Positions 50,359-54,257 of a stretch of DNA of 64,000 nucleotides are shown here, in pieces. This DNA comes from Arcobacter aquimarinus (GTDB lineage: Bacteria > Campylobacterota > Campylobacteria > Campylobacterales > Arcobacteraceae), in assembly GCF_013177635.1 (NCBI RefSeq), contig NZ_CP030944.1, positions 1,612,001 through 1,676,000 of the forward strand. The letters run 5' to 3'. The notes beneath the pieces were generated by a model that worked only from the letters and a program-made list of their open reading frames with translations, was not told the origin of the DNA and searched no databases. Position 1 is the first letter of the stretch; the number at the start of each line of letters is the position of its first letter. A program made the position numbers and the translations under genes.

Positions 50359-52842
50359 ATGATAAAAAAGATATACGATACTTTAATTTTAAAGTATCCT
50401 ATTGCAGTATTACTTACTGTTTTAGTATTTGTTTCAAGTTTGGGTTATTACTCTTCAAAACTTGAAATAGATGCTTCTGCTGAGACTTTACTTTTAGAAG
50501 ATGATAAGGATTTAGCATTTTTTAGAGAAGTGTATAAAACTTACAATAACTCTAATTTTTTGGTAGTTACTTTTTCTCCTACAGAAGAACTATTATCAAA
50601 AAAAAGTTTAGAAATTTTAAAAAAAATTTCAGATGATTTTTTAAAAGTAAAAAATGTAGAAAGCATAACTTCTATTTTAAATGTTCCATTACTTCAATCT
50701 CCTATTCGTCCTATTTCTGATTTAGTATCAGGTGTTGATTCATTAGAAACGAAAGAATTTGACAAAAATCTTGTAAAAAATGAGTTGTTAAACTCCCCAT
50801 TGTATTCAAACTCTTTGGTGAGCAATGATTTTAAAACAACTGCTATTATTTTAAATCTAAAAACTGATGCAAAATATTTTGAACTTTTAGAAAAAAGAAA
50901 CGCCCTACTTTCAAAAGAAAAAAATCACACTATTTCAAAAGAAGAAAAAGATGAACTAAAAAAAACTATAATTGAATTTAAAGAATATAGGGATTATTTA
51001 AGAATTGAAGAAACTAAAGAGATAGAACAAATTAGAGAAGTAATAAAGAATTATGAAAATGAAGCCAAAATATTTTTAGGTGGGGTAAATATGATAGCTA
51101 GTGATATTATTGGCTATGTTAAAAATGATTTAATTATTTATGGAACTTCACTTTTATTGATTTTAATTTTTATTCTTTGGTATATTTTTAGACATATTAG
51201 ATGGATAATTTTACCTTTATTTATTTGTTTGATTTCTGTTATTTCAACAGCTGGTGTTTTAGGTTTATTTTCTTGGGAAGTTACAGTTATATCTTCAAAT
51301 TTTATAGCTTTACAATTAATCATAACCATTTCAATCGTTTTACACTTAATAGTAAGATATAGAGAATTAAATGTAAAATATAAAAACGCAAGTCAATATA
51401 AACTTGTAATTAACACTATTTTATCAAAAATAAACCCTTCATTTTTTGCTATTATTACTACAATTAGTGGTTTTGGTTCATTAGTATTATCAAATATAGA
51501 ACCTGTAATAAATCTAGGACTTATGATGAGTACAGGAATTGCTATATCTTTATTTTTAGCTTTTATTACCTTTCCTGCTGTTTTAATTTTAATGAATAAA
51601 AAAGATGAACATGAACAAAAAAGTATCAGATTCTCTTTTATACAAAAATGTTCAGATATAGTAGAACATAAAACAAAAACAATAGTTATTGTAACTACTC
51701 TTGTAATATTATTTTCACTATCAGGAGCTTTAAAACTTGTTGTTGAAAATAGTTTTATTAGTTATTTTAAAGAGTCAACAGATATTTATAAAGGAATGAA
51801 AGTAATTGATGAAAATTTAGGAGGAACTACCCCTCTTGATATTATTATTAAATTTAAAGATGAACCAAAAACTCAACTAATTCAAACTTCAAATGATGAT
51901 TTTGATGACTTTGAAAATGAATTTGCACAAAGTGCAAATGATGAACAATATTGGTTTAGTCAAGATAAAATGGACACTATTATAGCTATTCATGATTATT
52001 TAGAAACCATTCCAGAAATAGGAAAAGTTCAATCTTTAGCAACTTTATTAAAAATTGGACAATCATTAAATAATGGGAAAAAACTTGATGGGATAACTCT
52101 TGCCTTACTTTATAATCAACTTCCTTCAAACTATAAATCTTTAATTTTATCTCCATTTATAAATATTGAAAAAAATGAAGCTAGAATAACTATGAGAATT
52201 TTAGATTCAAATCCAGATTTAAGAAGAAATGATTTAATTAGTAAAATAAATAATGATTTAAAAGAGATTATAAAAAATAAAGAAACAACTTATCAATTAT
52301 CAAATTTAATGATTTTATATAATAATATGCTTCAATCATTATTTGATTCGCAAATTGCAACATTAGGATTTGTTGTTATCATTTTATTTATAATGTTCCT
52401 AATTTTATTTAGGTCAATAAAAGTATCTTTAATAGCTTTAATTGCAAATATAATTCCTATTTCAGTTATATTTGGTATTATGGGTTGGCTAAATATTCCT
52501 TTAGATATTATGACGATAACTATAGCAGCTATTGCTATAGGAATTGGTGTTGATGATACAATTCACTTTATTCATAGATTTAAAGAGGAGTTTAAAATTG
52601 ACCATAACTATATAAATGCTATGAGAAGATCTCATAAAACTATTGGTTATGCGATGTATTATACCTCTTTAGTAATAATCATGGGATTTTCTATTTTAGT
52701 TCTATCTAATCTAATACCAACAATCTATTTTGGATTATTAACAGTTGTTACTATGTTTACTGTATTAACAGCTGATTTATTATTACTTCCAAAATTATTG
52801 TTAATATTTAAGCCGTATGAAAAATTGAAGGAGAATAAGTAA
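50359..52842 (+). CDS. MMPL/RND-family lipid transporter coupled to MlaA-MlaC
   Basis: The 827-residue protein has the RND layout of two times six membrane helices with large periplasmic loops (about 40-255 and 450-665) and the motif GIGVDDTIHFIHRFKEE after helix 9-10. It is HpnN/MmpL-like, a proton-driven transporter of lipids. The position directly after mlaC, as in Campylobacter jejuni (Cj1371-Cj1373), suggests that it drives phospholipid transport in place of the MlaFEDB ATPase. The stop overlaps the next ATG by one base. Confidence 0.88.
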   Translation: MIKKIYDTLILKYPIAVLLTVLVFVSSLGYYSSKLEIDASAETLLLEDDKDLAFFREVYKTYNNSNFLVVTFSPTEELLSKKSLEILKKISDDFLKVKNVESITSILNVPLLQSPIRPISDLVSGVDSLETKEFDKNLVKNELLNSPLYSNSLVSNDFKTTAIILNLKTDAKYFELLEKRNALLSKEKNHTISKEEKDELKKTIIEFKEYRDYLRIEETKEIEQIREVIKNYENEAKIFLGGVNMIASDIIGYVKNDLIIYGTSLLLILIFILWYIFRHIRWIILPLFICLISVISTAGVLGLFSWEVTVISSNFIALQLIITISIVLHLIVRYRELNVKYKNASQYKLVINTILSKINPSFFAIITTISGFGSLVLSNIEPVINLGLMMSTGIAISLFLAFITFPAVLILMNKKDEHEQKSIRFSFIQKCSDIVEHKTKTIVIVTTLVILFSLSGALKLVVENSFISYFKESTDIYKGMKVIDENLGGTTPLDIIIKFKDEPKTQLIQTSNDDFDDFENEFAQSANDEQYWFSQDKMDTIIAIHDYLETIPEIGKVQSLATLLKIGQSLNNGKKLDGITLALLYNQLPSNYKSLILSPFINIEKNEARITMRILDSNPDLRRNDLISKINNDLKEIIKNKETTYQLSNLMILYNNMLQSLFDSQIATLGFVVIILFIMFLILFRSIKVSLIALIANIIPISVIFGIMGWLNIPLDIMTITIAAIAIGIGVDDTIHFIHRFKEEFKIDHNYINAMRRSHKTIGYAMYYTSLVIIMGFSILVLSNLIPTIYFGLLTVVTMFTVLTADLLLLPKLLLIFKPYEKLKENK

Positions 52843-53405
52843 TGAATATTGCAATTTATTGTGGTTCTTCATTTGGAAACGATAAAATATATGAAGAATC
52901 TGCAAAACTAGCTGCTCAAAAATTAGCTGCTCAAAAACTAAATATAGTTTATGGTGGTTCTTTACAAGGATTAATGGGAGTATTTTCAAATGAATCTTTA
53001 AAATATGGGAACTATGTAACAGGCGTTATTACTTATGACTTAGTTTCAAAAGAAATTGAAAATACAAATATTTCAAAGATTTATAAAGTAGATACTATGA
53101 ATCAAAGAAAAGAGAAAATGGAAGAATTAAGTGATGCATTTATAGCTCTTCCAGGAGGTTATGGAACTTTTGAAGAGGTTTTTGATGTTATTTCTTCTGC
53201 ACAAATTGGTTATCATAAAAAACCAGTAGCTTTTTTTAATGTAAATGGATATTATGATAAACTAATAGAATTTCTGAGAAATTGTATAAATGAAGGATTT
53301 ATAAAAAAAGATTATGTTGATATGATTATTGTTTCTGATGATATAGATGAAATAATCAAAAAAATATTAACATACAAAGCACCTAAAGATAAATGGGTAA
53401 AATAA
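52842..53405 (+). CDS. LOG-family (TIGR00730) Rossmann-fold nucleotide phosphoribohydrolase
   Basis: The 187-residue protein has the motifs CGSSFGND, GGSLQGLMG and PGGYGTFEE, the latter being the LOG-type catalytic motif of cytokinin riboside 5'-monophosphate phosphoribohydrolase-like enzymes. The bacterial substrate is generally AMP-like nucleotides. A small tandem duplication (KLAAQKLAAQKL, residues 23-34) is visible in the first helix. Its start overlaps the RND gene stop. Confidence 0.92.
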   Translation: MNIAIYCGSSFGNDKIYEESAKLAAQKLAAQKLNIVYGGSLQGLMGVFSNESLKYGNYVTGVITYDLVSKEIENTNISKIYKVDTMNQRKEKMEELSDAFIALPGGYGTFEEVFDVISSAQIGYHKKPVAFFNVNGYYDKLIEFLRNCINEGFIKKDYVDMIIVSDDIDEIIKKILTYKAPKDKWVK

Positions 53406-53469
53406 GAGTTTATTTATCGTATTTACTTTTTGTTAACTTTATATTTAATATAGGTTAATTGATACCTAT

Positions 53470-53475
53470 TATAAT
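53470..53475 (+). promoter_or_regulatory. -10 box of the predicted small RNA
   Basis: A perfect TATAAT in the gap after the LOG gene, followed about 7 bases later by the predicted start of the small RNA. No -35 consensus, as usual for sigma-70 promoters of Campylobacterota. Confidence 0.5.
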
Positions 53476-53481
53476 ACTTTT

Positions 53482-53587
53482 ACAAGTTCATAAATATAGC
53501 TTAATTTGCGATGTTAAGTGATTTTTTGACTTTATCTCCTCCTTCTATATACAAGTCAAAGGAAGCCTAAATAGGCTTCCTTTTTTT
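53482..53587 (+). ncRNA. Candidate trans-acting small RNA with CU-rich anti-Shine-Dalgarno loop
   Basis: Between the LOG and HAD genes lies an independent unit of about 106 bases with a TATAAT box in front and an intrinsic terminator at the end. It can fold into three hairpins: CTTAA/TTAAG (53500-53518), an 8-bp stem TTTGACTT / AAGTCAAA (53525-53532 with 53553-53560) that presents a 20-base loop containing TCTCCTCCTT, and the terminator stem. CTCCTCCTT is complementary to AAGGAGG, the ribosome binding site consensus. Such CU-rich loops are used by Helicobacter RepG-like RNAs to bind mRNA leaders. Confidence 0.6.
53559..53587 (+). terminator. Intrinsic terminator of the small RNA
   Basis: A perfect 10-bp inverted repeat (AAGGAAGCCT / AGGCTTCCTT) with AAAT loop, GC-rich for this sequence, directly followed by T7 (counting the last stem bases). 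It also insulates the following HAD gene. Confidence 0.85.
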
Positions 53588-53621: not shown

Positions 53622-54257
53622 ATGAAAAAATACATACTTTTTGATAATGATGGTGTTTTAGTTCATACAGAACCATTATATTTTAAAGCAAATATCATAA
53701 CTTTAAAAGAGCATTTTAATCTCTCTTTAGAGTTCGATGAGTATATGAAAATTATGAGTGAAGGAACAACAGTTTGGCAAAAAGCTATTGATAGAGGATT
53801 TTTAGAAAAAGATATTATTTATGCTAGAGAAAAAAGAAATGAGTATTATCAAGAGTTTTTAAGAAGTGAAAATATTTTAATACATGGTGTAAAAGATATT
53901 TTAAAAGAGTTATCAAAAAACTATAAAATGGGAATAGTTACTACTTCAAGAAGAGTCGATTTTGAAATTATTCATAAAAATCTAGGATTAGTAGATTTTA
54001 TGGATTTTGTTCTTTGTGAGGAGGATTATGAATTTGCAAAACCACATCCACAACCATACTTAAAAGGTTTAGAAATACTTGGCGCAAATAAAAATGAAGC
54101 TATTGTAGTTGAAGATTCAAAAAGAGGTTTAACATCTGCTTACAAAGCAGGTATTGAGTGTGTAATTGTAAAAAATGAATTTACAATCACACAAGATTTT
54201 TCACAAGCTACTTATTTTATAGACTCTTTAAAAGAACTACAAGCCATATTAAATTAG
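53622..54257 (+). CDS. HAD-superfamily phosphatase (subfamily IA)
   Basis: The 211-residue protein has HAD motif I DNDGVLV (residues 8-14), motif II TTS (about 107), motif III Lys in the EEDYEFAKPHPQPY segment and motif IV VVEDSKRG. The cap domain lies between motif I and II. It resembles phosphoglycolate phosphatase/beta-phosphoglucomutase-like enzymes; the substrate cannot be told. It is monocistronic with its own AGGA site and overlaps the convergent tlpA-like gene by 4 bases at the stop. Confidence 0.9.
   Translation: MKKYILFDNDGVLVHTEPLYFKANIITLKEHFNLSLEFDEYMKIMSEGTTVWQKAIDRGFLEKDIIYAREKRNEYYQEFLRSENILIHGVKDILKELSKNYKMGIVTTSRRVDFEIIHKNLGLVDFMDFVLCEEDYEFAKPHPQPYLKGLEILGANKNEAIVVEDSKRGLTSAYKAGIECVIVKNEFTITQDFSQATYFIDSLKELQAILN

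Follow-up and report, generated by a model that had tools for sequence, protein, structure and literature searches.

A conserved small RNA locus in Arcobacteraceae with a phased promoter array and a CU-rich linker predicted to pair with the ccoN leader

In the genome of Arcobacter aquimarinus, the gap that separates a LOG-family gene (52842-53405) from a HAD hydrolase gene (53622-54257) contains a predicted transcription unit. It is composed of a promoter, an RNA of ~106 nt (53482..53587, forward strand, both ends predicted) and an intrinsic terminator. Promoter, RNA and terminator are conserved in related genomes; as far as comparison of sequences can tell, the element is real in an evolutionary sense. 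The small RNA is new, and its type is a familiar one. On balance, we favour the reading that it is a trans-acting small RNA with its own promoter, which would be activated by a two-component system through phased sites, and whose linker would lower the translation of ccoN in a group of relatives termed here the long-form species. Coordinates are those of the window, the 64-kb stretch of DNA that was analysed, which is contained in a 2.52-Mb single-contig genome (G000). The Aliarcobacter-like genus of the window is designated g1; relatives in it include Arcobacter caeni and Aliarcobacter sp.

A Probable Free-Standing Transcription Unit

The first-pass annotation described an independent, non-coding transcript with a promoter-like box and a terminator; as sequence features, the box, the terminator and the lack of conserved coding capacity hold. 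The TATAAT box at 53470-53475 (forward strand) is compatible with a start near 53482. A promoter scan of 2.3 kb gave 22 predictions against 16.5 expected, which is chance level, and the case for this promoter is thus its conservation. In the 2.3-kb scan, which would be expected to give 0.3 terminator-like sites, the stem-loop and T run at 53558..53587 (forward strand) is the sole one. The sole small frame across the CU motif (ATG at 53511, 19 codons) is not kept in the orthologs. The 15 orthologs with that ATG give anything from 4-residue products to open frames of more than 20 residues, and this coding candidate was rejected.

The small RNA folds better than shuffled sequences (z -2.93; 3 of 200 shuffles equal it). 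The earlier statement that no homologue could be named agrees with Rfam, which gave no match at the gathering score in the 64-kb window; searched locally, the element matched Rfam only far below gathering scores. It had no match in plasmid and phage collections. The comparative evidence for a free-standing unit conserved as RNA consists of the promoter, the covarying structure, the terminator and a gene order that does not depend on which gene lies downstream.

The gene 5' of LOG, at 50359-52842, encodes an 827-aa RND-type transporter, related to HAE3 and HpnN but below both cutoffs.

Distribution Among Arcobacteraceae

BLASTN of the element against 60 genomes (E <= 1e-3) gave matches in 23 of them, its own genome counted; the match in G036 covers the terminator only. 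The covariance model R1 was run on 104 genomes of the family, and matches and gaps were then read. Orthologs were found behind LOG in 28 of 31 g1 genomes and in G108 from the sister genus g39. Three of the 31 g1 genomes (G005, G013 and G028) do not have the element at the LOG locus. In G028 (L087) and G013 (L088), LOG abuts HAD with neither RNA nor promoter array between them, which looks like a clean loss.

LOG was found at E <= 1e-30 in 63 genomes of the family, and 61 LOG-downstream gaps were read, with G100 and G103 left out; in G103 the only LOG is a more distant one. The element was recognised by eye in 45 of the 61 gaps: 28 in g1, one in g39 and, from two more genera, five in g38 and 11 (of 15 gaps read) in g33. 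For several of the 16 element-less gaps, absence says little because LOG is distant there (40-51% identity). The versions in g38 and g33 have stems unrelated in sequence, while a CUCUCC/UCUCC-like core, the terminator and the promoter array are kept. Position, promoter and layout suggest that they are diverged homologs.

Weak matches of the covariance model elsewhere (E 0.001-0.1) were read in part. One of them, L080, is a real ortholog. Nine of ten weak-match regions inspected are plain terminators and not orthologs, and the same is true of L073, L075 and L076.

Each locus has a single element, between LOG and either HAD or another gene. HAD is 3' of the element in 26 of 28 g1 genomes, as would be the case if the element were a cis-acting leader or attenuator of HAD and not a separate small RNA. 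However, a gene other than HAD is downstream in L014 and L015, and yet another gene in g33 and g38. Because the downstream gene changes in these cases, the element goes with LOG and not with HAD. The unit is also closed by a strong terminator with a T run, and the leader explanation is very unlikely.

Structure of the RNA

The minimum free energy (MFE) structure of all ten relatives folded has the same layout, in which an unpaired CU linker separates a 5' hairpin from the terminator. On the forward strand of the window, the 5' hairpin occupies 53484..53532, with an outer stem formed by 53484-53490 and 53526-53532. It contains an inner hairpin (53500..53518) with the loop UUGCGAUG, whose stem is nearly invariant but is absent in what we call the short-form species. 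The linker at 53533..53559 includes the CU block TCTCCTCCTT at 53535-53544 and a second block, UAUAUACAAGUC, at 53546-53557, and is the part predicted to pair with the ccoN leader. Short-form g1 genomes, 12 in number, have neither the inner hairpin nor the TATATACAAGTC block; G001 and G006 are without the inner hairpin, with nothing else missing.

Covariation was measured in the structural alignment A5, which has 30 rows, including one reverse-strand artefact (L013:1459-1533:+). For its structure, 97.1% of cells are paired against 88.3% in shuffled alignments, and 14 of 23 pairs and 50 cells are changed on both sides against 6.0 and 9.5 (0 of 500 shuffles), statistics that favour this structure because the alignment was fitted to it. 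In the 5' outer stem, six of seven pairs are changed on both sides, with 94.7% of cells paired, and in the terminator stem two-sided changes are seen in eight of ten pairs. The inner hairpin is outside the reach of covariation because it is almost invariant. RNAalifold on MAFFT alignments returned four pairs each, in our view because the stems are misaligned there, and the structural alignment was used instead.

These data bear on an earlier model of the fold, in which an 8-bp stem, TTTGACTT/AAGTCAAA (53525-53532 / 53553-53560), closes a 20-nt loop with the CU motif. The stem is indeed perfect in the source sequence. The window's own RNA has the common layout as its MFE, but its centroid contains most of the 8-bp stem; since the two differ, both folds may compete in the source species. 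As a conserved structure, the stem finds no support. Its pairing (71.6%) does not exceed that of shuffles (70.5%; 97 of 500 as high), its covariation is limited to three pairs and five cells, and it is missing from the MFE of all ten relatives folded. Its 3' arm is altered or lost in every short-form species and in several of the long-form ones, and the co-varying 5' hairpin takes up the same GACTT. The CU motif is therefore placed in an open linker between the co-varying 5' hairpin and the terminator and not in a hairpin loop, and we regard the 8-bp arrangement as highly improbable. Nor is the motif invariant, as had been expected: the core varies in L013, L017, L018 and L057, and a CUCCU/UCUCC-like core alone is kept.

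Equally improbable is that the locus is conserved as DNA only, made of promoter debris and the terminator of LOG with no functional RNA: terminators behind genes are common, but here the unpaired linker and loop blocks are conserved, the 5' stem covaries and the promoter array lies between LOG and the RNA.

Two further features were observed. The GCGA-containing loop at 53506-53513 is conserved in g1; most g33 homologs have a UGCGAA-type sequence at two places, once in the hairpin loop and once ahead of the CU core. In six of the 11 homologs from g33 (L158-L163), the terminator loop contains a second UCUCCUU-like/CUCUCCU motif, as if the pairing motif were doubled.

A Phased Promoter Array Shared with a Two-Component Operon

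Upstream of the -10 box there are four RTTAAY-like half-sites in 11-bp phase (53421..53464, forward strand), which are predicted to be a probable response-regulator site. The first base of the -10 box is 16 nt past the start of the last half-site. The array resembles, we presume, the sites of PhoB/PhoP-type regulators, which are likewise phased by 11 bp. An arrangement of four phased RTTHA sites is found nowhere else in the 64-kb window. The phased array is present 5' of the elements in g1, g39, g38 and g33, and a script detected it with the 16-nt spacing to TATAAT in 44 of 45 elements. In L159-L161 from g33, there is a one-base offset between two half-sites. The script chose the wrong place in L151, where the array was read by eye. 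A PWM was built from 23 such promoters, among them the window's own; the score at this training member is 41.7, against 7.7 at the next-best place in the 64 kb.

With one mismatch allowed, the array pattern matched the source genome eight times against 11 for a control pattern, so it is not specific by itself. The element is the only exact match. One further match has the identical spacing to a -10 box, and it is 5' of an operon for an LTXXQ protein, a response regulator and a kinase. The LTXXQ protein matches PF07813 (E 2.6e-10), and its best NCBIfam match is Spy, below the cutoff. The response regulator belongs to the OmpR family and the kinase to the ArsS family (NF038389, 425 bits against a cutoff of 250).

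Thirty regulator loci were examined, drawn from 92 genomes with a match. The array is 5' of the regulator operon in 26 of the 30, including L195 and L204. In L196 it is ~170 bp before the regulator, away from the usual place. The locus sequences of L191, L197 and L199 end short of the place of the array, and the array is absent 5' of the regulator in L205. The small RNA and the LTXXQ/OmpR-type/ArsS-type operon thus share a site at equal distance from the -10 box. Because the same array and spacing precede both, the small RNA is probably in the regulon of this system. The simplest reading is probably autoregulation of the regulator together with a shared regulon, the binding of the regulator being suggested by the position of the array.

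Related arrays were seen at two other places in this genome. At L335 (G000:C1:1486921-1486976), an 11-bp-phased array, found by a pattern one base off, is 5' of a ResB-family gene (cytochrome c biogenesis; PF05140), a possible further member of the regulon. At L175 / L239 (G000:C1:782027), a related array is 5' of a small gene, whose product we take to be a hemin uptake protein HemP.

Predicted Pairing with the ccoN Leader

The first-pass annotation regarded AAGGAGG as the ribosome binding site used across the window. This does not stand: there are two matches against 3.8 expected, one of which is the antisense of the CU motif. The enriched motif in the window is AGGAGGA, with 13 matches against 3.8 expected. 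The target prediction on Shine-Dalgarno leaders that had been suggested was run on AGGAGGA sites. The pattern AGGAGGA-(3-11)-ATG occurs at 42 sites in the genome against 35 for a control pattern, so most of these sites are not special. Scoring covered the 20 of the 42 sites whose frame is 30 codons or longer.

The best of the 20 was ccoN (-29.5), followed by a gene for a DUF1924 protein (-23.1) and by others at -19.3, -18.8 and -18.2. The identity of ccoN is indicated by TIGR00780 as the best match and by COX1; the TIGR00780 match is below the full-length cutoff because it concerns the N-terminal 185 residues only. The DUF1924 protein (L251), identified by domain match, was rejected as a conserved target, since AGGAGGAGA is present in G000 only among 23 orthologs.

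The full duplex between linker and ccoN has a predicted energy of -31.9 kcal/mol. It joins 53533-53559 of the small RNA with -34 to -2 of the leader in ~25 bp and covers the ribosome binding site. Both conserved blocks of the linker are paired, TATATACAAGTC with GACTTGTATATA and ATCTCCTCCT with AGGAGGAGAT. By base composition, ~1.3 GACTTGTATATA-like 12-mers are expected per genome. In the full-length cofold, the hairpins of the small RNA are retained and the gain is 20.7 kcal/mol. Because the second block, TATATACAAGTC, extends into the ccoN leader, the long-form pairing is more than a generic anti-Shine-Dalgarno match.

The linker was compared with the ccoN leader of the same genome in 44 of 45 element genomes; the leader of G091 is cut off. 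The controls were 53 window leaders, which come from G000 and are foreign to the other genomes, and 200 shuffles, whose counts are upper bounds because the shuffler could return the original sequence. All 17 long-form genomes gave -22.0 to -32.0 kcal/mol, each beating all 53 leaders, with 0-24 of 200 shuffles equal; the range of 13-24 belongs to G008, G026, G030 and G029. The 12 short-form genomes gave -14.9 to -19.7, with 5-41 of 200 shuffles and up to three of 53 leaders as good. For g38 (five genomes) the values were -11.7 to -16.4, with 12-74 of 200 shuffles as good, and for g33 (ten genomes) -11.9 to -15.7, with 2-50 of 200 as good, G081, G087, G088 and G089 being at 2-6. Complementarity to the initiation region of the target (ccoN leader -34 to -2) is thus found in the long-form clade and is weaker elsewhere, and the pairing with ccoN appears not to be specific in g38 and most of g33. 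A target search in the five g38 genomes with a 15-base complementarity pattern and one mismatch gave no common start site.

No compensatory changes between the RNA and the ccoN leader were seen among the genomes compared. A near-identical ccoN leader is present in genomes whose LOG locus yielded no such RNA (G028, G013, G032, G116, G109 and G110), and the leader must have another constraint because it is kept there. This is perhaps its promoter, and a second role of the region, in promoter or leader function, is likely. The ccoN leaders of 57 genomes (L252-L311) are unusually conserved, with two GTGAC repeats upstream (AAGTGAC...GTGACTTG) and AGTAGGAGGAGATTGATG.

The earlier proposal that the RNA blocks translation initiation is strengthened by its conservation and by a strong predicted target, but not in its original form, as the CU segment is not in a conserved loop. 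The most serious alternative concerns the breadth of its action. A small RNA controlled by the regulon may use its CUCCU core against numerous mRNAs that have strong Shine-Dalgarno sequences, or against a set that differs by lineage, with ccoN one of several targets or incidental. The CUCCU/UCUCC-like core is all that is common to every genus, the g33 and g38 versions show little specificity for ccoN, the motif is doubled in six g33 terminator loops, and other sites score in the source genome (-23.1 for the DUF1924 protein, others -18 to -19). Against this, TATATACAAGTC is kept in most long-form species and pairs with ccoN just upstream of the Shine-Dalgarno match, and the DUF1924 site is confined to one genome. 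We consider action on many targets unlikely, though far less so than the other alternatives.

Proposed Mechanism

Returning to a trans-acting small RNA directed at ccoN, conservation, covariation of structure, the shared array and complementarity were computed, and from them we infer transcription, regulator binding, repression of ccoN and a stress signal. The ArsS-family sensor kinase would be triggered first, and the signal could be acid or envelope stress. The OmpR-family response regulator, encoded behind the Spy-like LTXXQ protein, would then occupy the four RTTAAY-like sites. The small RNA would be made, with its CU-rich linker exposed between the 5' hairpin and the terminator. In the source species and its long-form relatives, the linker would pair with the ccoN leader and mask the ribosome binding site, leading to less cbb3-type oxidase.

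A wider reading is possible and is offered tentatively. A regulon small RNA in four genera of Arcobacteraceae may tie an ArsRS/Cpx-like sensor to the terminal oxidase; envelope or acid stress would then slow respiration through riboregulation, in a group of bacteria in which the members studied, H. pylori and C. jejuni, have no Hfq. In this reading, the stems are nearly fully turned over between genera and the promoter array and CUCCU-like core are kept. If true, this would parallel the down-turn of respiratory complexes by Cpx of E. coli, but through a small RNA, and a promoter and a short core would persist while the remaining RNA is rebuilt between genera. The small RNA comes with a predicted regulator, a signal class and a predicted target. 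In the open-licence literature, as far as its text was accessible, no description of an Arcobacter or Aliarcobacter small RNA was found.

Comparison with Known Systems

RepG of Helicobacter pylori has a CU-rich pairing site and pairs by its terminator loop. Both RNAs are small RNAs of Campylobacterota acting in trans on a 5' leader, here by prediction. Unlike RepG, the present RNA has its pairing site in the linker, is predicted to target ccoN, and has a different locus and promoter. RepG (HPnc5490) acts at the level of translation on a G-repeat in the tlpB leader, according to the excerpted text of PMC8322730. No such homopolymeric G-repeat is present here, where the site in ccoN is GACTTGTATATA...AGGAGGAGA. 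The accessible passages of the literature describe H. pylori as without Hfq and ProQ (PMC8322730) and C. jejuni as without Hfq (PMC3847290).

The CcsR or cuckoo RNAs carry a CU-rich anti-Shine-Dalgarno-like motif and, like the candidate described here, are stress-linked small RNAs. The sequence CCUCCUCCC is found in PMC3927594. In alphaproteobacteria, the CcsR RNAs affect both C1 metabolism and the defence against stress, and CcsR1-4 arise by processing of a transcript that also includes a DUF1127 gene and is controlled by RpoHI/RpoHII (PMC10253847, excerpts). Tandem copies with a DUF1127 gene are not found here; the RNA is encoded by one gene, which has a phased-site promoter of its own. By analogy, the small RNA would work like RepG and the CcsR RNAs, yet it lacks one tested defining feature of each.

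The proposed regulator also has parallels. The kinase is above the cutoff of the ArsS family model, which recalls ArsRS of H. pylori. That system is acid-responsive, and the accessible part of PMC11162790 describes no clear consensus site for its ArsR, whereas a sharp 11-bp-phased array is proposed here. ArsRS is linked to the antisense RNA 5'ureB-sRNA in the excerpted text of PMC8322730; the RNA described here would be of the trans-acting type. The likeness to Cpx of E. coli consists of a Spy/CpxP-type protein with an OmpR-type system, although the kinase is CpxA in E. coli and of the ArsS family here. Cpx acts by transcriptional repression and protein turnover, as far as the accessible sources describe it, whereas a small RNA acting on the cbb3 oxidase is proposed for Arcobacteraceae.
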